Source: a virus
IMG/VR virus record: IMGVR_UViG_3300029267_000770
Coordinates: 1-23,576 of that record
DNA length: 23,576 nt
Direction: 5' to 3' (one strand)
Part shown: positions 11,585 to 22,857 of the stretch, piece after piece
How the letters are laid out: every line of letters begins with the position of its first letter
Position numbering within the stretch: the first letter of the stretch is position 1
Notes under the pieces: generated by a model
The model's database searches: none
The model's input: the letters and a program-made list of their open reading frames with translations, nothing else
Told to the model about the DNA's origin: nothing
Made by a program: the position numbers and the translations under genes

Positions 11585-13226
11585 TATTACGGACTGCGCT
11601 AGCGCTTTGCTCGCCTATTTGTTTAGCGATTTGCCTTGCTAAATCGGTTGCACTTTGCCCGGGTTGCTGATTCACGGTAATATTGTTTTGGTTACTTACC
11701 GCTACATTACCCCCCTGATTATTCGTTACGTTGTTAGTCGGTTGCGGGGTTGGAGTTCCGCCCATTGCATTTACAACAAAGCTAGGCAAAGCCCCCTTGA
11801 TAGTCTGAATTCCCGATTTCACTTTATCAATTGCCCATTGCATACCGCTAACAATTGAATCATATATCCGGCCCATGAAAGCTATTAATTGCTCACCTTG
11901 ACTAATCCAAAAAGAGAAAAAGCTTTTTACAAGCTTGACAGCAAAATTAAGAGCATTGCCGATTTTATCGGGCAATTGGGTTAAGAATACATCCGCTCTT
12001 TGCTTTAGGAATTCAATTTCCTTATCTGTATACCCCATAGCAGACAAAAGGAAATCTTGAATGCTCGATATTCCTTCTTGAATTTTGGGCTGTATAATTT
12101 TGTTGAACTCACCGATTACGGACTCCCCGCCCGTAACGAATTGATATAAATCCTCTAAGACAAGGGCAACCAATCCAAGACTAGCAGCCCGCAACCCCAT
12201 CATTGCTACTTTAGTCGCGGCTGCCCTAGCGGCTAACAAACCCTGTGCAATGGTTAACCCCTTAGTCAGTCCTAATAGGGTCTGCAATGCAGCTATAACT
12301 TTAAAAGATAACCACATTCCAAATAGAATAGCTGTTAATCGTAAAGCCTTATTCAATCCACCTAGAAACTCAACCAAATCAATAATCCAACCGACTACAG
12401 TTTTTAATAAACCGGTAATAGCCTTAAAGACCTTTATAAAGCCTTCCGCCCATTGCTTAACCCTAGTTCGGATCAAATCCCTATTTGCTCTAACCCATTC
12501 GTTGAATAGCTCTAAAACCGGTGCTATTCCTTCTCCAACTAACCCTGAAAATAAGGCTTTAATACCTGAAACCGCGTTACCTACATCATCTAAAGCATAG
12601 AAAAAACGTAAAGCTCCCGCCCGTCCTTCATCGGTTTGAACATTGATCCTAGCCTGCGCTTCTAAGATTTCTTCTACTGTTCCTTTTTGTTGTCTTAGAT
12701 AGCCAACAATCATAGCAGCTTGCCGGCCGCCTAATTGTTGTGCGGCTGCTAGTGCGGTAGCTTGATCGGTTGAATCTTTAGCCGCTTGAAGAATAGTTAT
12801 ATACTGTTCTTCTGGCTTCATTTTTTGAAGCTTATCAAACTCAATATTGATAGCCTTAGCAGCATCTTTAATGGTTTCGGCGGAACCGATACCGGCTGCC
12901 GCTTGCCCGATACGTACTGACATATCTTTCATTAACCGGGTTACCGCGCTAGCCTCCAACCCGATAGCAGAAAGAAGAAAACCCCAATTTTCCGCCGCTT
13001 CCGCGCTAAGCCCAAAAGACCTAGCTAGGTTTGTATTTACTGCGGTTTGTTTATTGGTAACTGTGATAAGAGCAGTAACAGCAGTAACAGCCCCCGCAAC
13101 CGCAATAGACGCTTTTTTAACAATGTCTTTTAGATTGGTCGCTTGTTCATTAAATTTATTTAGCCCCTTTGGGTCTACATCCCACCCCAAAACCGCTACA
13201 AATTCTTCAACTACTGTTTTAGCCAT
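11562..13226 (-). CDS. Tail tape measure protein
   Basis: A 554-aa tape measure protein. It sits right after the tail assembly chaperones and before the baseplate. The N-terminal part (FNEQATNLKDIVKKASIAVA, about 25-44) is helical and typical of phage tape measures. There are strong hydrophobic helices around 300-365 (LTAILFGMWLSFKVIAALQT, then LAARAAATKVAMMG and ASLGLVALVLEDLYQF) that could cross the host membrane. The C-terminus is Asn/Gln rich (NNVTNNQGGNVAVSNQNNIT). At the usual 0.15 nm per residue it would set a tail of about 80 nm, which is short. Its ATG overlaps the preceding stop by 8 nt (ATGGCTAA). Confidence 0.9.
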   Translation of the reverse strand: MAKTVVEEFVAVLGWDVDPKGLNKFNEQATNLKDIVKKASIAVAGAVTAVTALITVTNKQTAVNTNLARSFGLSAEAAENWGFLLSAIGLEASAVTRLMKDMSVRIGQAAAGIGSAETIKDAAKAINIEFDKLQKMKPEEQYITILQAAKDSTDQATALAAAQQLGGRQAAMIVGYLRQQKGTVEEILEAQARINVQTDEGRAGALRFFYALDDVGNAVSGIKALFSGLVGEGIAPVLELFNEWVRANRDLIRTRVKQWAEGFIKVFKAITGLLKTVVGWIIDLVEFLGGLNKALRLTAILFGMWLSFKVIAALQTLLGLTKGLTIAQGLLAARAAATKVAMMGLRAASLGLVALVLEDLYQFVTGGESVIGEFNKIIQPKIQEGISSIQDFLLSAMGYTDKEIEFLKQRADVFLTQLPDKIGNALNFAVKLVKSFFSFWISQGEQLIAFMGRIYDSIVSGMQWAIDKVKSGIQTIKGALPSFVVNAMGGTPTPQPTNNVTNNQGGNVAVSNQNNITVNQQPGQSATDLARQIAKQIGEQSASAVRNNASGVVY

Positions 13227-13515
13227 TGCCTAAACCATTCTTCTTATCAATGTATTTTTGGAATTGGCGATCGGTTTCCATTTGAACAAACATGAATTCT
13301 TGCCTATCCAAAAAATCTACATTGGACCAGTTCTCAACTATGCTAGGATCAAGGCTATAATAGTAAGCAACTTGATACGTTTCCAACTGCCCCGGTTCCA
13401 AACTATGATCTAATCTAGGTTCAAATCCTTCATTTTCTCCACGATAGCGGAACCGGTGAGCTTTTCGCGGAGTATCGTAAAAACCTTTGGATAGTTGATT
13501 TGAATTGCATTCCAA
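13219..13515 (-). CDS. Second tail assembly chaperone frame (T-like), -1 relative to the upstream chaperone
   Basis: A frame overlapping the end of the upstream chaperone (13410-13515) and running on to the tape measure start. It has no ATG or normal start in the overlap (the first usable codon is TTG at 13515). The T frame is open only from 13530 (TGA at 13533-13531). The section after the upstream stop, around YQVAYYYSLDPSIVENW and FLDRQEFMFVQMETDRQF, has the small acidic/aromatic look of T-type chaperone extensions. It is most likely made as a -1 frameshift fusion (GT) that coats the tape measure during tail assembly, as in lambda. No canonical slippery heptamer is seen, so an independent weak start cannot be excluded. 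Confidence 0.68.
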   Translation of the reverse strand: MECNSNQLSKGFYDTPRKAHRFRYRGENEGFEPRLDHSLEPGQLETYQVAYYYSLDPSIVENWSNVDFLDRQEFMFVQMETDRQFQKYIDKKNGLGNG

Positions 13516-13871
13516 ATCGCTATATAAAGCTCACTAGGATTTTCCCCAAAATATTCCTCAAAATCTATTTCTTCTTTGTCAATGATTACATTTGCTAAAA
13601 GTGTTTCGCCCAAATCCCAAACTGTTGAAAAATCGAGTGTCTGTAACGCTTTTAACAAATCGCTTGATTCGGGAGCATCGCCGCTTTTTACAAGCTCAGA
13701 AAAAGCCCCCGCAATAGCCAATAAAGTATTATGGAAAATCCTAGCAGCATCTTTCCGCTTTAGCAGAACAAAGGAATACTCTTTTTCCCCGTCCAATGTT
13801 TTAATGGTAACGGTTTTTTCGAGATTCTTTAGCGCTTGTTTTGCTTCATTCTTTGTCATATCCGCTCGCAT
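13410..13871 (-). CDS. Tail assembly chaperone (G-like)
   Basis: A 153-aa protein between the tail tube and the tape measure, where the G chaperone is expected. It is a helical acidic/basic protein (EAKQALKNLEKTVTIKTLDG, with KEYSFVLLKRKDAARIFHNT, about 8-49), with FDEEYFGENPSELYIAIWNA-like C-terminal segment resembling Mu-like and DUF3383-phage chaperones. ATAGAAAGGG (13879-13888) lies upstream of the ATG at 13871. The short N-terminal MRAD preceding MTKNEAK allows a second possible start four codons in. It probably works with the overlapping frame to chaperone the tape measure. Assignment is by position and general features rather than a specific motif. Confidence 0.78.
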   Translation of the reverse strand: MRADMTKNEAKQALKNLEKTVTIKTLDGEKEYSFVLLKRKDAARIFHNTLLAIAGAFSELVKSGDAPESSDLLKALQTLDFSTVWDLGETLLANVIIDKEEIDFEEYFGENPSELYIAIWNAIQINYPKVFTILREKLTGSAIVEKMKDLNLD

Positions 13872-16700: not shown

Positions 16701-17117
16701 CTATCCCGTCCATCCGGCCCAACTAATCGATTGTCTTAGTTGCCCGGTATCTATTAGGTGGATTGCCGTTATTGTTGCTTGGATGTCTCTTTGTACGAGT
16801 AGCCCCAAAGCCCCTTGTGCTTTTTCGGGCTTTATCTTCGCCAATAACAAATCACGAATAAGCCTTTTCATCAAATCTCGATACTTCTTATCGTTATTTA
16901 TTAGCGTTGATCTTAAAAAATGTTTCGCTTTGACTCTTTTAGTGCCGAATTCTTGCCACCATGCAATTTCGGCTACCGTTGCCCCCGTATCAGAATTGTT
17001 ATGCTCGCCCGCCCCACGTAATACACCAACTTTAACCATAGCTGGATTTGTACGCTTTTTCAGTCCTTCAACGCCACCATTGCGGCTAGTCCGCTTGATA
17101 TGTCCCGTAAAAGGCAT
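16701..17117 (-). CDS. HK97 gp10-like neck/tail-completion protein
   Basis: A 138-aa protein recognised by the conserved core of this family: AEIAWWQEFGTKRVKAKHFL (about 50-69), where 'EFGT...PFLR'-like motifs are diagnostic, and the C-terminal LIDTGQLRQSISW (about 121-133). It has the usual arginine/lysine-rich N-terminus (GHIKRTSRNGG). Family members act in neck or tail completion between adaptor and terminator. Its ATG directly abuts the stop of the upstream DUF4054 gene (17117/17118). Confidence 0.82.
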   Translation of the reverse strand: MPFTGHIKRTSRNGGVEGLKKRTNPAMVKVGVLRGAGEHNNSDTGATVAEIAWWQEFGTKRVKAKHFLRSTLINNDKKYRDLMKRLIRDLLLAKIKPEKAQGALGLLVQRDIQATITAIHLIDTGQLRQSISWAGWTG

Positions 17118-17411
17118 CTAGCAGCCCGTCTGTAACTCCGAAACCGCAACCGCGCCCATTCCTACCAACCTAACTAAAGACCAGTATTCTGCCCCGTAGG
17201 GCGTTCTAAGATAATATGCTTCCGTTCCGCTATCGACAGATGGAACAGCATAGTTAATTTGTACATCCCCAACTTTTTTAGAGGAAACGGGAAAAGACGG
17301 GGTAGCACTGCTAGCGGATTCCTGCAAAATCGAAAGGGCTAGATAATGCGCCGCTAACAGTGCTACCCCTTCATCATACAAATTACCCCATTTACACTCA
17401 CTAACAAGCAA
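17118..17411 (-). CDS. DUF4054-type head-tail adaptor, N-terminally truncated reading frame
   Basis: A 97-aa frame that matches the main part of DUF4054 adaptor proteins: CKWGNLYDEGVALLAAHYLA, then SVDSGTEAYYLRTPYGAEYW, then RLVGMGAV. The open frame extends upstream of the TTG at 17411 as LNKATLLVSECKWG, which aligns well with the family helix 'LxxAxxxVxxxxW', but there is no ATG; the frame closes at a TAA about 27 bases earlier. The expected family start MITPxQFxxRF occurs just upstream in another frame (17458-17423). So the gene looks disrupted near its N-terminus by a deletion plus frame change, or it starts at TTG. If real, the adaptor ring subunit might be altered or replaced elsewhere in the genome. 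Confidence 0.68.
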   Translation of the reverse strand: MLVSECKWGNLYDEGVALLAAHYLALSILQESASSATPSFPVSSKKVGDVQINYAVPSVDSGTEAYYLRTPYGAEYWSLVRLVGMGAVAVSELQTGC

Positions 17412-17422
17412 TGTCGCTTTAT

Positions 17423-17458
17423 TTAAAACCGCTCTTTAAATTGTGTAGGGGTAATCAT
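17423..17458 (-). pseudogene. Detached N-terminal fragment of the DUF4054 adaptor
   Basis: An 11-codon frame, MITPTQFKERF then TAA. The text is the family's usual N-terminus (MIT-x2-3-F-x-x-R-F, normally followed by PEF). It is in the 0 frame, whereas the rest of the protein is in the -1 frame. About 14-18 family residues between RF and LNKATLL appear missing. A stop of the upstream gene lies 8 bases before the ATG, with a weak AAGGAATAGG ribosome-binding stretch, consistent with this being the original start. Confidence 0.6.
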
Positions 17459-17466
17459 ATGCTTAC

Positions 17467-17712
17467 CTATTCCTTATCCTTCTTTTTCTTCTTATCCTTC
17501 TTTTCAGTCTTAGCCTTAACGATAGAAACGTTCTTTTTCTCCTTATGAGCTTTGAAATAATCGCTACCCTTCAAAGCTTTAAACGTTTCTTCATCATTAA
17601 TGCTATTTTCGCCCGGGATAAGACGGACGAATTTTTTTTCATCCCCAACAGTTACATTGAAACCTAATAACCTTTCAGTATTATTTTCAACAATTCGGCT
17701 ATCATCCGACAT
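17467..17712 (-). CDS. Small lysine-tailed protein following the capsid gene, function unknown
   Basis: An 81-aa protein. The core VTVGDEKKFVRLIPGENSIN (about 20-39) followed by DEETFKALKGSDYFKAHKEK resembles small conserved proteins that follow phage capsid genes, with 'L-x-PG-x-N' and a downstream 'Fkahke' element. The last 14 residues are almost entirely K, E and D (KTEKKDKKKKKDKE). A site ATAGAAAGGGG (17718-17728) lies before the ATG. It might be a minor capsid or neck accessory; no function is claimed. Confidence 0.65.
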   Translation of the reverse strand: MSDDSRIVENNTERLLGFNVTVGDEKKFVRLIPGENSINDEETFKALKGSDYFKAHKEKKNVSIVKAKTEKKDKKKKKDKE

Positions 17713-17764: not shown

Positions 17765-18697
17765 CTAGATTTTCTCTTTGATATTGAACGCAAGGGGGTA
17801 ATAGACGTTAAGCCCGCCGCATTCAGCCGTTACGGGGGTAATAACCTCTAAATTCCGCCTTTCCTCGGGATGGAAAACAATATCTTCTGGGATCTCAAAT
17901 TCAACCTTCATCGGGTCGCGGGGGTAAGCTACCATAACGTCCACGCCAGCCGTGCCAGCCCCTTCTAATTGCGGAACAGCGATAATATCATTAGGGCTTG
18001 ACAGATAAGGGCTATTCTGAATCACAAGCTGCGCAATCGTCATAGAAAGATCGGGAACTCGTTTGGTGAAAATGAGATTCCATTGCGCCAACGGGAGTAA
18101 CAGAGTATTAGCCCGTTCCTTACCCTTAGTGTTATCGTTAATCTCACTAAAAATAGCGTTAATATCATCTAAGATTTCATCTGCCGTTTTGGTGCTCCAT
18201 TCGGGGGTTGTAGCCGCTCCATTGGGAACATCACTAGTGGGGATATTCGGATGCGTTAACACACCAAATAAACCACTATCGGAATCCCCAAATAAAGAAA
18301 CGTCATTCATGAATTCTTCAATTGCGCGTCTAGCGGCATCTGCGCGCATCTGCGAAAGGGGCTTACCAGCCATACGGGCGGAAAGAATCTCTTTTCTTGA
18401 ATAACCAAAGCTAGCCGCAACCGTCCGAACGGGAATCGTAACCTCCCGCCCGTCTACATCTGCCCGGGGCAAATCGCCAGCATAGTTATTGATGATTTTC
18501 GCAATCCCCCGCTTATCATAAACCTGATACGTGATATGAGTGGCACCGGGATTGGTATCGGTCGCGATCGGGAAGATCGATCGATACATCAAATCAGCAT
18601 ACTGAACGTCAAAAGTTTTAGCCTTAATAGCTTCCAATTCTCTTTCAAAGAAAATCGAGCCTTCATCATTCAACAGTTCAACGATTTTGGGATCCAT
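17765..18697 (-). CDS. Major capsid protein (DUF2184, HK97-fold type)
   Basis: A 310-aa major capsid protein of the DUF2184 family. Recognised by ELEAIKAKTFDVQYADLMYR (about 20-39), GATHITYQVYDKRG (about 51-64), then GREVTIPVRTVAASFGYSRK and the spine-helix region DAARRAIEEFMNDVSLFGDS (about 119-138) with 'GLFGVLTHPN', and a late VYYPLAFN segment. The fold is the HK97 type. It follows a cement gene and a protease/scaffold gene as is usual. The ATG has a very strong site, ATAGAAAGGAG (18707-18717), fitting a high-copy product. No proteolytic prodomain is obvious within the protein. Confidence 0.92.
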   Translation of the reverse strand: MDPKIVELLNDEGSIFFERELEAIKAKTFDVQYADLMYRSIFPIATDTNPGATHITYQVYDKRGIAKIINNYAGDLPRADVDGREVTIPVRTVAASFGYSRKEILSARMAGKPLSQMRADAARRAIEEFMNDVSLFGDSDSGLFGVLTHPNIPTSDVPNGAATTPEWSTKTADEILDDINAIFSEINDNTKGKERANTLLLPLAQWNLIFTKRVPDLSMTIAQLVIQNSPYLSSPNDIIAVPQLEGAGTAGVDVMVAYPRDPMKVEFEIPEDIVFHPEERRNLEVITPVTAECGGLNVYYPLAFNIKEKI

Positions 18698-18706
18698 TTT
18701 TATTAC

Positions 18707-18717
18707 TCCTTTCTATA
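18707..18717 (-). promoter_or_regulatory. Extended ribosome-binding site of the capsid gene, ATAGAAAGGAG
   Basis: ATAGAAAGGAG on the - strand, 9 nt before the capsid ATG. The same element, (A)TAGAAAGG(A/G), precedes five other late genes (13879-13888, 14321-14330, 17718-17728, 19210-19219, 5175-5183). It can pair over 10 bases with a 16S 3' end of the CCUCCUUUCUA type. Confidence 0.75.
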
Positions 18718-18724
18718 GGCTCGA

Positions 18725-19201
18725 TTAGCTACCGATAGCCGGAAGAATGTTAACACGGACAAGACAAATATCACCGGAAACCGCGCAAGCTTCTTCTAAT
18801 TGCGCTCTAATAGCAATATGAGTTCCATCGACAGCAGCGGTCGAAAGCTGGCCGGAAGTGGTAACGTAAGTTAAACCATCACCTACATTTCCGGTTCCAT
18901 CAATTGAACAATAAATGAAACCTTCTTGCATATAGGCTACAGCTTCTTCATCCGAATAAAGTGCAACCCCACTACTATCATTTTCATGCGCCAAATCCCT
19001 AACTGAAATACCGGTTGCAGCGCCGCCTTCCGCCACCTTAACCTGCTTTTCGGGATCGGTGCCTAACTCAACAGCTAAACCAAAAGCAACATTCCCTTCC
19101 GCCGCTTTAGACCTAATCACTTTGGGTTCTAAATCAGCAATCAAACCGGGATAGGCTTTTGCCATTTTATTTTCGTAACTGGTCTGAACTCCCTGCGTCA
19201 T
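18725..19201 (-). CDS. Capsid cement/decoration protein (DUF2190-like)
   Basis: A 158-aa protein between protease/scaffold and capsid genes. It has the recognisable pattern of structural cement proteins: an N-terminus YENKMAKAYPGLIADLEPKV (about 9-28), VAFGLAVELGTDP, then GGAATGISVRDLAHEND (about 59-75) and a YMQEGFIYCSIDGTGNVGDG block (about 89-108) followed by LTYVTTSGQL. Such proteins stabilise the mature shell on its outside. TAGAAAGGAG (19210-19219) lies before the ATG, a full-strength site. I am confident of the role, less of the exact family. Confidence 0.83.
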   Translation of the reverse strand: MTQGVQTSYENKMAKAYPGLIADLEPKVIRSKAAEGNVAFGLAVELGTDPEKQVKVAEGGAATGISVRDLAHENDSSGVALYSDEEAVAYMQEGFIYCSIDGTGNVGDGLTYVTTSGQLSTAAVDGTHIAIRAQLEEACAVSGDICLVRVNILPAIGS

Positions 19202-19232
19202 TTTAGTATCTCCTTTCTACTATCTTTCTATG

Positions 19233-19772
19233 TTACTTATCTTCATTCTTGTAAGCATTCCGCGAATTTTCAACAAACTTTTTACGGGCCGCTTCGCTCG
19301 GCTTTTCTTTACCTTTAGGAGCATTGTTGAAAGCGCCGTTTAAAGCATCATTACTATCATCCAACCCTTTCTTTGCATTGGCTAACATAGTATCGAAAAC
19401 AGCATCAATATAATCATTGGACTTGTCTTTTAAATCAGCATCTTTGTTAGCCGCGAGAATAGCCGCTTTCTTGATTTCGACGTTAGACTTATTATCTACT
19501 TCGATCTTAGGATCTAATACCTTTGCATTGGTGATCAATTCGGTGCGCTCCTTAACAAGTGCATCAATTCGATCGGTATTAGCTAACTCCGCTTTGGTGG
19601 CGTCTAATTCGCCTTTCGTCTTATCAAGCTCTTTCTTCGAATTCTCCAATTCAGTCTTAACGCTATCAAGCTCACTACTAAGTTTTTCATTCTCAGTAGT
19701 GACGCTATCAAACGCCTGTAAAGCCTGATTCGAAAATTCAATCTCGATTCCGTTAACAATTCGTTTCTCCAT
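19233..19772 (-). CDS. Probable nested scaffold protein (in-frame internal start)
   Basis: An in-frame internal ATG at 19772 would give a 179-aa scaffold consisting of the coiled-coil and charged tail only. Directly before it lies AAGAAAGGAA (19781-19790), with an 8-nt spacer, close to the site used by the strongest late genes in this window. The protease domain ends before this point. The arrangement is the lambda C/Nu3 plan. Not proven that it is translated. Confidence 0.62.
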   Translation of the reverse strand: MEKRIVNGIEIEFSNQALQAFDSVTTENEKLSSELDSVKTELENSKKELDKTKGELDATKAELANTDRIDALVKERTELITNAKVLDPKIEVDNKSNVEIKKAAILAANKDADLKDKSNDYIDAVFDTMLANAKKGLDDSNDALNGAFNNAPKGKEKPSEAARKKFVENSRNAYKNEDK

Positions 19773-20369
19773 TTTCCCGTTTCCTTTCTTGTTGTTTTGG
19801 CTTTCCTCATTAGCCAAGCGGACTTTATCACCGGCCCGCCCTTTGAACACAATAGCCACATGATTAACGCGAATATCTTTAAATTCCGCGTCATACTCCC
19901 CAAAATCGGGATCTTCACCTTTATTCCAAAGGACTTCCGCCTTCATTCCCGTTGAACATTCTTCTTTAACTTTATCATTAATTTGATTGATCAATTCCGA
20001 ATCAGTGATAAGCAAATCGGCGCTAACCATGTTTCCTTTTTTCCTAGCCGCTTTAACGAAACCGCGCGAAAAGAACCGGGCATTTTGGCTAGTCACATTT
20101 TCGGACGGGTGACCATTGGTTATCGGCTTATCAATGATCGAAGCGATCGATTCTTTATCAAAAACCGCCTCTGGCCGATAAAGAACGCGGATAGCTTGAT
20201 CCATCGGGGCATTTTTCAACTCATTAGGTAGCGCTTCCGTGGGAAAATCGAAAACACAATAATTCAAAATACCGGACCTAGCAACGTTAGCATTAACCTT
20301 CATAAACCCTTCTGAGGTAATTTCACGATTGCTCAATTCGACGGTTTGACGATTATTGATTTGGATCAT
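19233..20369 (-). CDS. DUF2213 prohead protease with C-terminal scaffold region
   Basis: A 378-aa fusion of prohead protease and scaffold. The N-terminal domain has the DUF2213/U35-like serine protease elements: His87 in ITNGHPSENV, Ser139 in EECSTGMKAEV, and His170 in RVNHVAIV, then GRAGDKVRLANE. From about residue 200 the protein is a coiled-coil scaffold (TTENEKLSSELDSVKTELEN, then KKELDKTKGELDATKAELAN), ending in a charged tail. A Met at residue 200 (ATG 19772) has its own strong ribosome-binding site, so an independent scaffold is probably made, as with lambda Nu3. AAAGGAG precedes ATG 20369. Gene order fits: minor head, protease, cement, capsid. Confidence 0.9.
   Translation of the reverse strand: MIQINNRQTVELSNREITSEGFMKVNANVARSGILNYCVFDFPTEALPNELKNAPMDQAIRVLYRPEAVFDKESIASIIDKPITNGHPSENVTSQNARFFSRGFVKAARKKGNMVSADLLITDSELINQINDKVKEECSTGMKAEVLWNKGEDPDFGEYDAEFKDIRVNHVAIVFKGRAGDKVRLANEESQNNKKGNGKMEKRIVNGIEIEFSNQALQAFDSVTTENEKLSSELDSVKTELENSKKELDKTKGELDATKAELANTDRIDALVKERTELITNAKVLDPKIEVDNKSNVEIKKAAILAANKDADLKDKSNDYIDAVFDTMLANAKKGLDDSNDALNGAFNNAPKGKEKPSEAARKKFVENSRNAYKNEDK
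19781..19790 (-). promoter_or_regulatory. Internal ribosome-binding site for the nested scaffold
   Basis: AAGAAAGGAA on the - strand, 8 nt before ATG 19772 and inside the protease-scaffold frame. It matches the TAGAAAGGA-type sites before the capsid, cement and tube genes. Confidence 0.6.
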
Positions 20370-20434
20370 ATTGAACGCTCCTTTGTTGAATCATACTCGC
20401 GCACTAGCAAATAAACTAGTTGACAAACTTTCCC

Positions 20435-21262
20435 CTAAGCTTTCATTATTTTCAATCCAGTTAGATCGGGATCTGCCGTGCATCTGCATTGTATATCCTC
20501 GCCCGGGTGTCCGGTTATAGCGGGCGGGCTATCCCATGCAAACCGCTTCCCATTATTAGCAGCATGATCCGGTCTAACCCTTTCATCTTCACTAGTACGC
20601 CAGAAATAATGTGTTATACCTATATCATCTTGACGAATTCGGTTTAGGTTACCATTCAATTTGCTAACTTGGTCCCGGGCAATTAGCTTTGCTCGACGTT
20701 TTGAAACGCCACCAATTGCTTTTATATCCTTCTTTATAGAGAAGAAATCATTTCCACTTGTAACACCTTGCAAAACAACCCGTTCAATTCTATCAAATTG
20801 CTTTGCAGGCATCGTTTTTATTAGTGCTACATTCTCAGTAACACTAGCCCGCAAAGCCGAATCAACGTTGCTATCCGCAAGAATAGAAGTAATATCTACT
20901 CCAACCGCTTTATTGATTTGCTTTACAAATTTCTTTCTATTGAATTCGCTGTTTTGCTTTGCCATTTCTGCGGCGATTTCTTCCGCTACTTTTTCAACTT
21001 GTGTCCATTGCGATCGCAAAGCCCGAATTGCTATTCGGATGCTAGAAGGATCATAGTTAGCAATATAAAACTTTTCTTCCCTTTGTAATAGGGGTAATAA
21101 CTCCTTTTCAATATCCTTTATAACGGGATCCACAAAATGTTTTACTAGCGCCCTATAATAGCTCAATTCAATTTGCCTGGATACGTCTACCCCCGTTCCC
21201 GCACTAGCTTTAAGCCTTTGGCTTTCTAGTTGCTTTTGGAGCTTGATAGGGTCAATAGCCAT
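20435..21262 (-). CDS. Mu gpF-like minor head / head morphogenesis protein
   Basis: A 275-aa protein of the phage head morphogenesis (Mu gpF / SPP1 gp7) family. The diagnostic C-terminal block is clear: KRRAKLIARDQVSKLNGNLN (about 193-212), then THYFWRTSEDERVRPDHAAN and NGKRFAWDSPP, ending with the HPGEDIQCRCTADP cysteine motif. The N-terminal half is helical and basic. Such proteins bind the portal or incoming DNA inside the prohead. Its ATG overlaps the portal stop by one base (TAATG), as is typical for portal-gpF pairs. After it there is a 65-nt gap before the protease gene with no clear promoter. Confidence 0.9.
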   Translation of the reverse strand: MAIDPIKLQKQLESQRLKASAGTGVDVSRQIELSYYRALVKHFVDPVIKDIEKELLPLLQREEKFYIANYDPSSIRIAIRALRSQWTQVEKVAEEIAAEMAKQNSEFNRKKFVKQINKAVGVDITSILADSNVDSALRASVTENVALIKTMPAKQFDRIERVVLQGVTSGNDFFSIKKDIKAIGGVSKRRAKLIARDQVSKLNGNLNRIRQDDIGITHYFWRTSEDERVRPDHAANNGKRFAWDSPPAITGHPGEDIQCRCTADPDLTGLKIMKA

Positions 21263-22857
21263 TACTTAGCCCTTCCCATAACTAGTGTGATTCCTTCCGC
21301 TACGCTGTCATTTCGGAAAGTGCTAAAGTGTTGTGGATCATATTGGCGGAATCGGTAGCTAGTATTAGTCTCATCTACTCCATAATTCTTGAATTGTTCA
21401 TGATCTGCAATCCATTTTTCGGCTTGTGCTTTGGTGAATTCTTCTTTCGAAAGAATGATCGATTGTGCTAACCATTTGCCCTTTTGATCTGCGGCGGGCT
21501 TTCGTCCAATAGCCGGATTGGTAAACAATGCGTTATCAACGTCGGTATCAGTTGGTTCCATTCCTTCAATCGATTCCAATGCAGTTACATATTCATCGTC
21601 AATAGCATTATAAACGTCGTTATCCCTTAACTGTTTAGCCACAACAGAAGATGAAATAACCCCGTTTTGCAAATAAATTTGGTCCCGTTCCGCGTTTGAT
21701 TTCTGAATTTCGGCCTTTTCTTTGTCCGAAAGTTGCCATAAAGAACGAAATTCAAAGCTCCAATCATCGGGATAATAGCCCAAAATGGACCTAGAAAACA
21801 CTTGATCGAAGTAGGTTAGCGCCGGTAATAACTCGTTTTCTTGCTTGGAACTAACCATATCATAGTAATTCTCTAAATCACTATCGCCGGTAGCATTCAA
21901 ACCAGACGGGCTAGCCCCTAATAATCGAGTTTGCGGGATGTCACTAGCGGCGGAAACAATGCCAAGATATTCATTCATCATAGCATCTAAACCGCTAAAG
22001 CTAGTTTGCTTGCGATCGTGTGTTTCTTCCCTATCAAGTAACAAGGTATTGTTAATCGATTTCAACAAATCGGCCAAATGGAATCGATCGATTAATTGCT
22101 TTTCCCCATCGGGCATAGATAGCATTTGCATTAGATTCGGGATAGAAATAATGTCTAACTTCGATTCGTATACTAGGGAATTTACAATTTCTGCAAAGGA
22201 TTGAGAGTTCAAAACCGCATCATATACCCTTTGCAATACGGGGTTACTCCAATAATTGTTTTGCTGGCGCACCCTAAACGGCGCTAGCAGCCCATCAAAC
22301 CGGATAACCCTTGTATGGTGTACCATATACCCGCCCGGTAATTGATAGAATTCTGGATACTGGTAGTTAGCTTTGGTTGGATCTGAGGTATTGATCGAAC
22401 TGGCCGATACCATCCAACGATCTAGAATATGAATATATTTCAAATTCCCTTGTTTAATACCATCTAAAACCAATGGCTCCTCTAGATTTCCGCTATCTTC
22501 TACCCCCAAAAACATCAACGAACCACCATAGAGGTAAGCCCATTTAAGCGCTTCATTGAATTTCCGTTTAATCTTCCATTCTCTTTCGGCTTTTTCGTAT
22601 TGCTCAATCTCCTTTGGATCCATGTTCGGGGTAGTAATCGCCCGCCAATTTCGAACAGCATCATTAGCGGGAATATCAATGATTTTCCCCGATAGCCAAT
22701 CGTTAGTATACATATCTTCCAATTGCTGATAGCTGAAATCCCTTGCTTGAAAGAATGAATACATACGCTTGTCTTTATTGGTGCCAATATTGGCTACCAA
22801 GTTTCTTAGCGTATTTTGTGCATCTACAATTTCCGCTTTTGGCTTTTCTTGTGACAT
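21262..22857 (-). CDS. Portal protein (DUF1073 type) with extra C-terminal domain
   Basis: A 531-aa portal of the DUF1073 (HI1409-like) family. Typical segments: FSYQQLEDMYTNDWLSGKII, DIPANDAVRNWR, the WAYLYGGSLMFLGVED strand, then HHTRVIRFDG, and TRLLGASPSGLNATGDSDLE (a hallmark of the family), followed by ENYYDMVSSKQE. ATG 22857 is preferred to the upstream start at 22884, because AAGGGGG lies 7-12 nt before it and the extension MGRCIRGFD is not like the family. The last 70-80 residues (SIILSKEEFTKAQAEKWIAD ... TSYRFRQYDPQHF, ending ITLVMGRAK) are a separate small domain found in other phage structural proteins. Database labels sometimes call this family Acb1-like; there is no Acb1 catalytic pair here. 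Confidence 0.9.
   Translation of the reverse strand: MSQEKPKAEIVDAQNTLRNLVANIGTNKDKRMYSFFQARDFSYQQLEDMYTNDWLSGKIIDIPANDAVRNWRAITTPNMDPKEIEQYEKAEREWKIKRKFNEALKWAYLYGGSLMFLGVEDSGNLEEPLVLDGIKQGNLKYIHILDRWMVSASSINTSDPTKANYQYPEFYQLPGGYMVHHTRVIRFDGLLAPFRVRQQNNYWSNPVLQRVYDAVLNSQSFAEIVNSLVYESKLDIISIPNLMQMLSMPDGEKQLIDRFHLADLLKSINNTLLLDREETHDRKQTSFSGLDAMMNEYLGIVSAASDIPQTRLLGASPSGLNATGDSDLENYYDMVSSKQENELLPALTYFDQVFSRSILGYYPDDWSFEFRSLWQLSDKEKAEIQKSNAERDQIYLQNGVISSSVVAKQLRDNDVYNAIDDEYVTALESIEGMEPTDTDVDNALFTNPAIGRKPAADQKGKWLAQSIILSKEEFTKAQAEKWIADHEQFKNYGVDETNTSYRFRQYDPQHFSTFRNDSVAEGITLVMGRAK

Follow-up and report, generated by a model that had tools for sequence, protein, structure and literature searches.

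A neck adaptor gene split over two frames in a contractile-tailed phage fragment: most likely a recent deletion or an assembly error

In the phage DNA analysed here (IMG/VR record IMGVR_UViG_3300029267_000770, positions 1 to 23,576, i.e. a stretch of 23,576 nt, hereafter called the window), the gene for the DUF4054 / gp15-like neck adaptor lies in two different frames and lacks a segment of 14 residues; the other head, neck and tail genes checked are intact, and relatives carry the adaptor gene as a single copy. Judged from its letters, the window adaptor is a broken copy of a DUF4054 / gp15-like member and, as written, not a functional one. Most likely, this is a known gene present as an ordinary broken copy, due to a recent deletion or an assembly error, and no new mechanism is involved. 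The reading that we consider best, and towards which we lean, is an isolated, recent, out-of-frame deletion of ~43 nt in the adaptor gene. The following features of the region are referred to below:

17765..18697, - strand, major capsid protein gene, intact (PF09950, 4.6e-70; full-length match to relatives)
17467..17712, - strand, small gene between capsid and adaptor, intact, 81 aa, with a Lys-rich tail
17423..17458, - strand, N-terminal fragment of the adaptor gene (ATG 17458, MITPTQFKERF, TAA 17425-17423)
17118..17435, - strand, DUF4054 / gp15-like adaptor body, 105 residues open, in another frame than the ATG of the fragment, without ATG or GTG
17424..17430, - strand, putative deletion junction (GGTTTTAAAT), where codon F11 meets the T-run that stands before the I/L-x-x-A helix of relatives
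17409..17411, - strand, TTG, the sole start codon of the body frame, with a weak ribosome-binding site
16701..17117, - strand, next neck protein gene (tail completion / Neck1), intact (phrog_222, 1.9e-22; relatives matched over most of the length)

Two pieces of one adaptor gene

A first-pass annotation had described a DUF4054 adaptor whose start and body are in different frames, and this description holds: the peptide MITPTQFKERF from ATG 17458, its stop TAA and a body without ATG in the -1 frame relative to this ATG were all reproduced in coordinates and sequence. The body frame (RAVLNKATLLVSECKWGN...) contains an in-frame TAA at 17438-17436 and is then open from 17435 to TAG 17120-17118. 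Its product reached 57.4 bits (1.8e-15) against PF13262 (DUF4054), for which the curated cut-off is 23.9 bits, with a match restricted to profile positions 20-105, and 2.7e-28 against the head and packaging family phrog_302; the conserved residues A27, H28, Y78 and G79 are all kept. With an N-terminal motif profile of 9 columns built from 13 relatives, TPTQFKERF scored 23.1, compared with 11.7 for the runner-up among the 28,648 six-frame positions of the window and no more than 16.2 in any of 20 shuffles. The upstream peptide is no chance match, and it sits exactly at the expected place of the N-terminus. The body itself comes after the major capsid gene and before the next neck gene, an order shared with L015, L033, L017-L019 and L023. 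By family score and gene position it is therefore a DUF4054 adaptor; what it lacks is a complete in-frame N-terminus, i.e. the helix, the PEF turn and the second helix.

The window is part of the genome of a contractile-tailed phage that belongs to the E217 / XM1 / Pam3 structural type. All other genes tested in it are open, and those with detectable homologues are colinear with relatives, most being matched over most of their length. The small gene upstream of the adaptor gave only a weak PHROG match in the family search and has counterparts at the same place in L015 (4953-5327), where its end overlaps the adaptor start, in L033 and in L037. Its tail is fast-changing and of low complexity, i.e. 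Lys-rich in the window and composed of Pro/Glu/Lys repeats in L015 and L033. Further downstream in the operon, the tail assembly chaperone gene (phrog_1613, 13219-13871, - strand) overlaps another ORF, which is in the -1 frame; the overlap contains GGTTTTT at 13485-13479, likely a typical tail-chaperone programmed -1 frameshift site, with the same site and arrangement in G004/L061 (6362) and G002/L067 (12247). A tRNA-Leu (anticodon taa, 2101-2186, + strand) separates the gene for DNA polymerase from a transglycosylase-like gene and overlaps the start of a mechanical ORF at 2153.

Relatives and the missing segment

In capsid protein, L015/L016 (57%) and L033 (53%) stand nearest to the window, all being IMG/VR contigs with the same gene order; a two-sequence alignment was used for this capsid search of the relatives, the six-sequence alignment being too divergent. 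The window adaptor body is 44% identical to the L033/G004 adaptor. The adaptors of L033 and L015 resemble it in gene order, N-terminal motif (TPxTFKxRYPEF) and body (~42-44% identical), whereas they run in one continuous frame with the 14 residues present. L033 reads TPATFKARY-PEFDSESDARIQIF-INDAMLEVSESRWG, the window TPTQFKERF-(nothing)-LNKATLLVSECKWG; exactly 14 residues (PEF...F) separate both pieces in L033, ending at the T-run, and these are absent from the window. Lost with them are the PEF turn, which is conserved, and the N-terminal half of the second helix. A T-run stands just before the I/L codon in L033 (ATTTTTATC), L037 (ATGTTTTTG) and L015 (TCTTTTTTC), and in all three its spacing from the R[YF]PEF motif is ~14 codons.

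The comparison with L033 thus implies a putative deletion with its junction in TTTT 17428-17425; since 14 residues are lost and the frame has changed, ~43 nt would be gone (remainder 1 on division by 3). Of the size proposed by the first-pass annotation (14-18 residues, 40-55 nt), the deletion and the frame change stand, and the range narrows to these values. Considering the T-run before the I/L codon in relatives and the junction GGTTTTAAAT in the window, the deletion edges probably share T-rich microhomology. A collapsed tandem repeat was discarded as the cause, as the only repeats close by (AAAGAAGGATAAG, 17478-17504) are located within the upstream gene rather than on either side of the junction.

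The adaptor set comprised 43 distinct sequences, including that of the window. All 42 relatives have at least 50 residues (range 50-79) between ATG or GTG and the conserved His; for the window adaptor this count is 22 from the TTG, or 30 when the whole open frame is counted. A short TTG-started form shared by relatives had been named beforehand as evidence against a disruption, and it was found in none of these 42 distinct adaptors, so the deletion reading stands. Among the 10 relatives above the family cut-off, the PF13262 match starts at profile position 1-4 in eight and at 11 and 32 in two divergent ones, compared with 18-20 in the window. Each relative record with a match, two of which are contigs of 42.5 kb, has one PF13262 copy, and the search for a second adaptor gene that had been proposed returned none in the window with PF13262. 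Exact-DNA scans of viral_contigs with the N-terminal and body sequences yielded no intact or identical sibling, and the adaptor protein scan yielded only distant relatives (33-40% identity).

Structure and expected function

The intact L033 adaptor was modelled with block-mean pLDDT values of 89-96 over residues 1-60 (75.9 overall) and helices at residues 5-11, 20-31 and 36-66. Its best solved match in Foldseek was E217 gp27 (E 1.5e-4, probability 1.00), followed by Vibrio phage XM1 gp1 (probability 0.99, 31% identity) and then the T1 and FCWL1 adaptors. Mapped on this model, the missing segment covers the PEF turn together with the initial 7 residues of helix 20-31. TTG 17411 corresponds to residue 32, after this helix, and a TTG-started product would be left without both N-terminal helices.

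The window body also matches E217 gp27 (PDB 8FVH; PMC10329688) in sequence (phmmer E 1.4e-4), and the neighbourhood is of the same type, i.e. a Major_capside family capsid, an E217 gp24-like cement protein and weak E217-like neck and hub matches. While gp27 is modelled for residues 1-155, the N-terminal region in the window is split and 14 residues shorter. XM1 gp1 (PDB 7KLN; PMC10457771), a dodecameric protein of 118 residues that completes the head and has the gp15 fold, is intact in XM1, in contrast to the broken gene of the window. Both proteins form a 12-subunit ring under the portal, with their C-termini as anchors (PMC10329688; PMC10457771). The SPP1 gp15 adaptor (PMC9701221) belongs to the same functional class, to which the window gene is linked via the literature and the XM1/E217 structures and not by a direct sequence or fold match. 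The N-terminal helix of SPP1 gp15, alpha0, links the alpha1 helices of adjacent subunits, and in the Arg5Glu Arg8Glu mutant, in which the alpha0 contact is broken, the connector does not close (PMC9701221). Considering the lost N-terminal helices together with the role of alpha0 in SPP1 and the ring formed by E217 gp27 and XM1 gp1, loss of adaptor function is to be expected by analogy.

Origin of the lesion

The split gene might nevertheless yield a functional short adaptor, either by termination-reinitiation at TTG 17411 or by -1 frameshifting or slippage that fuses the two frames at the junction. The body frame is intact to its end with its four conserved residues kept, and TAA 17423 precedes the TTG by 12 nt, which makes coupling physically possible. 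However, the ribosome-binding site of the TTG is weak (-2.9 kcal/mol; ATG 17458 has -7.8 kcal/mol, typical for the operon), the other assigned starts in the - strand operon are all ATG, except for the frameshift product at 13515, and no relative is built in this way. A switch into the body frame is possible only within the 12 nt of AAAGAGCGGTTT, bounded on both sides by TAA codons, i.e. that of the body frame at 17438-17436 and that of the N-terminal fragment. Translational frameshifting was rejected since no codon in this stretch re-pairs one base back; the slippery heptamer conserved in relatives that marks a programmed -1 frameshift is absent from the junction, the relatives being single-frame, and the junction looks quite unlike the likely genuine GGTTTTT site at 13485. 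Transcriptional slippage on TTTT was rejected as well, because the run is short. Moreover, any fusion of both frames would still be without the 14 residues, including the near-invariant E of PEF. The recoding proposed in the first pass thus finds no support, and we regard a functional short adaptor as improbable. Even less credible is a viable phage whose neck adaptor has dispensed with its N-terminal helices and is re-initiated at TTG after an 11-codon leader, the relic of the old N-terminus.

The first-pass annotation had also raised the idea of a decaying prophage, in which the adaptor lesion would be one of several in a degenerate integrated phage, and a broken essential gene is compatible with it. 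Yet no other broken gene is present in the 23.6 kb, and neither several damaged genes nor relaxed selection is seen. The sibling contig L014 (IMGVR_UViG_3300017987_001366) is 99.8% identical to window 18103-22697 (4595 nt, no indels); eight of the nine differences are synonymous and all nine are at third codon positions. From these comparisons, the structural genes look actively maintained, probably under purifying selection. The window encodes a family A DNA polymerase and an SNF2-like helicase, both frequent in lytic-type phages. Neither the window nor the two 42.5-kb relatives or three others (relatives of up to 47.6 kb) contain a tyrosine integrase, and no bacterial flanking sequence is seen in the window, itself a genome fragment. 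Since the structural genes are open and colinear, the sibling differences mostly synonymous and a tyrosine integrase absent from these records, a decaying prophage is not supported and appears very unlikely. The intact other genes and the mostly synonymous sibling differences agree instead with an isolated deletion of very recent date or with an error of assembly. In the latter case the sampled phage would be intact, and contig ends or strain variants would have been misjoined at T-rich sequence, with ~43 nt dropped. We consider this tentatively, as a serious possibility that falls short of the deletion in probability. A lethal lesion in the sampled consensus is unexpected among structural genes that look actively maintained, which raises the odds of an artefact, and this is the sole lesion among them. 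In addition, L014 stops at window 18103, 650 nt short of the adaptor gene, and six of its nine differences fall within its last 263 nt, inside the capsid gene (binomial p ~2.5e-6); this cluster suggests strain mixing near the adaptor and is possibly a recombination or strain-mixing boundary. Pseudogenes made by assembly are, moreover, common in bacterial genomes (PMC11017572). On the other hand, the junction shares only ~4 T with its flanks, probably too short for ordinary k-mer collapse, the window contains no N, and the 12-nt repeats nearby (17484-17504) are outside the junction.

If, as we infer, the deletion arose in the DNA and not in the assembly, it would have removed the sequence between the TTT of codon 11 and the T-run ~14 codons further on, and slipped mispairing at the T-rich microhomology would be the probable route. 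The allele as written would then encode an 11-residue peptide only, and at best weak re-initiation at TTG 17411 might add a protein without the two N-terminal helices. The 12-subunit adaptor ring under the portal would not be formed or closed, so that heads would be neither sealed nor joined to tails, and the genome could persist only as an inactive copy or where intact relatives take part in a mixed infection.

In more general terms, the case calls for caution, as one small deletion, be it genuine or introduced by the assembler, can be enough for a metagenomic phage to appear defective or reliant on recoding. If the deletion is real and frequent in the population, an essential neck gene would have a null allele in nature, perhaps kept in the population by co-infection with intact relatives, and this would be of modest interest.
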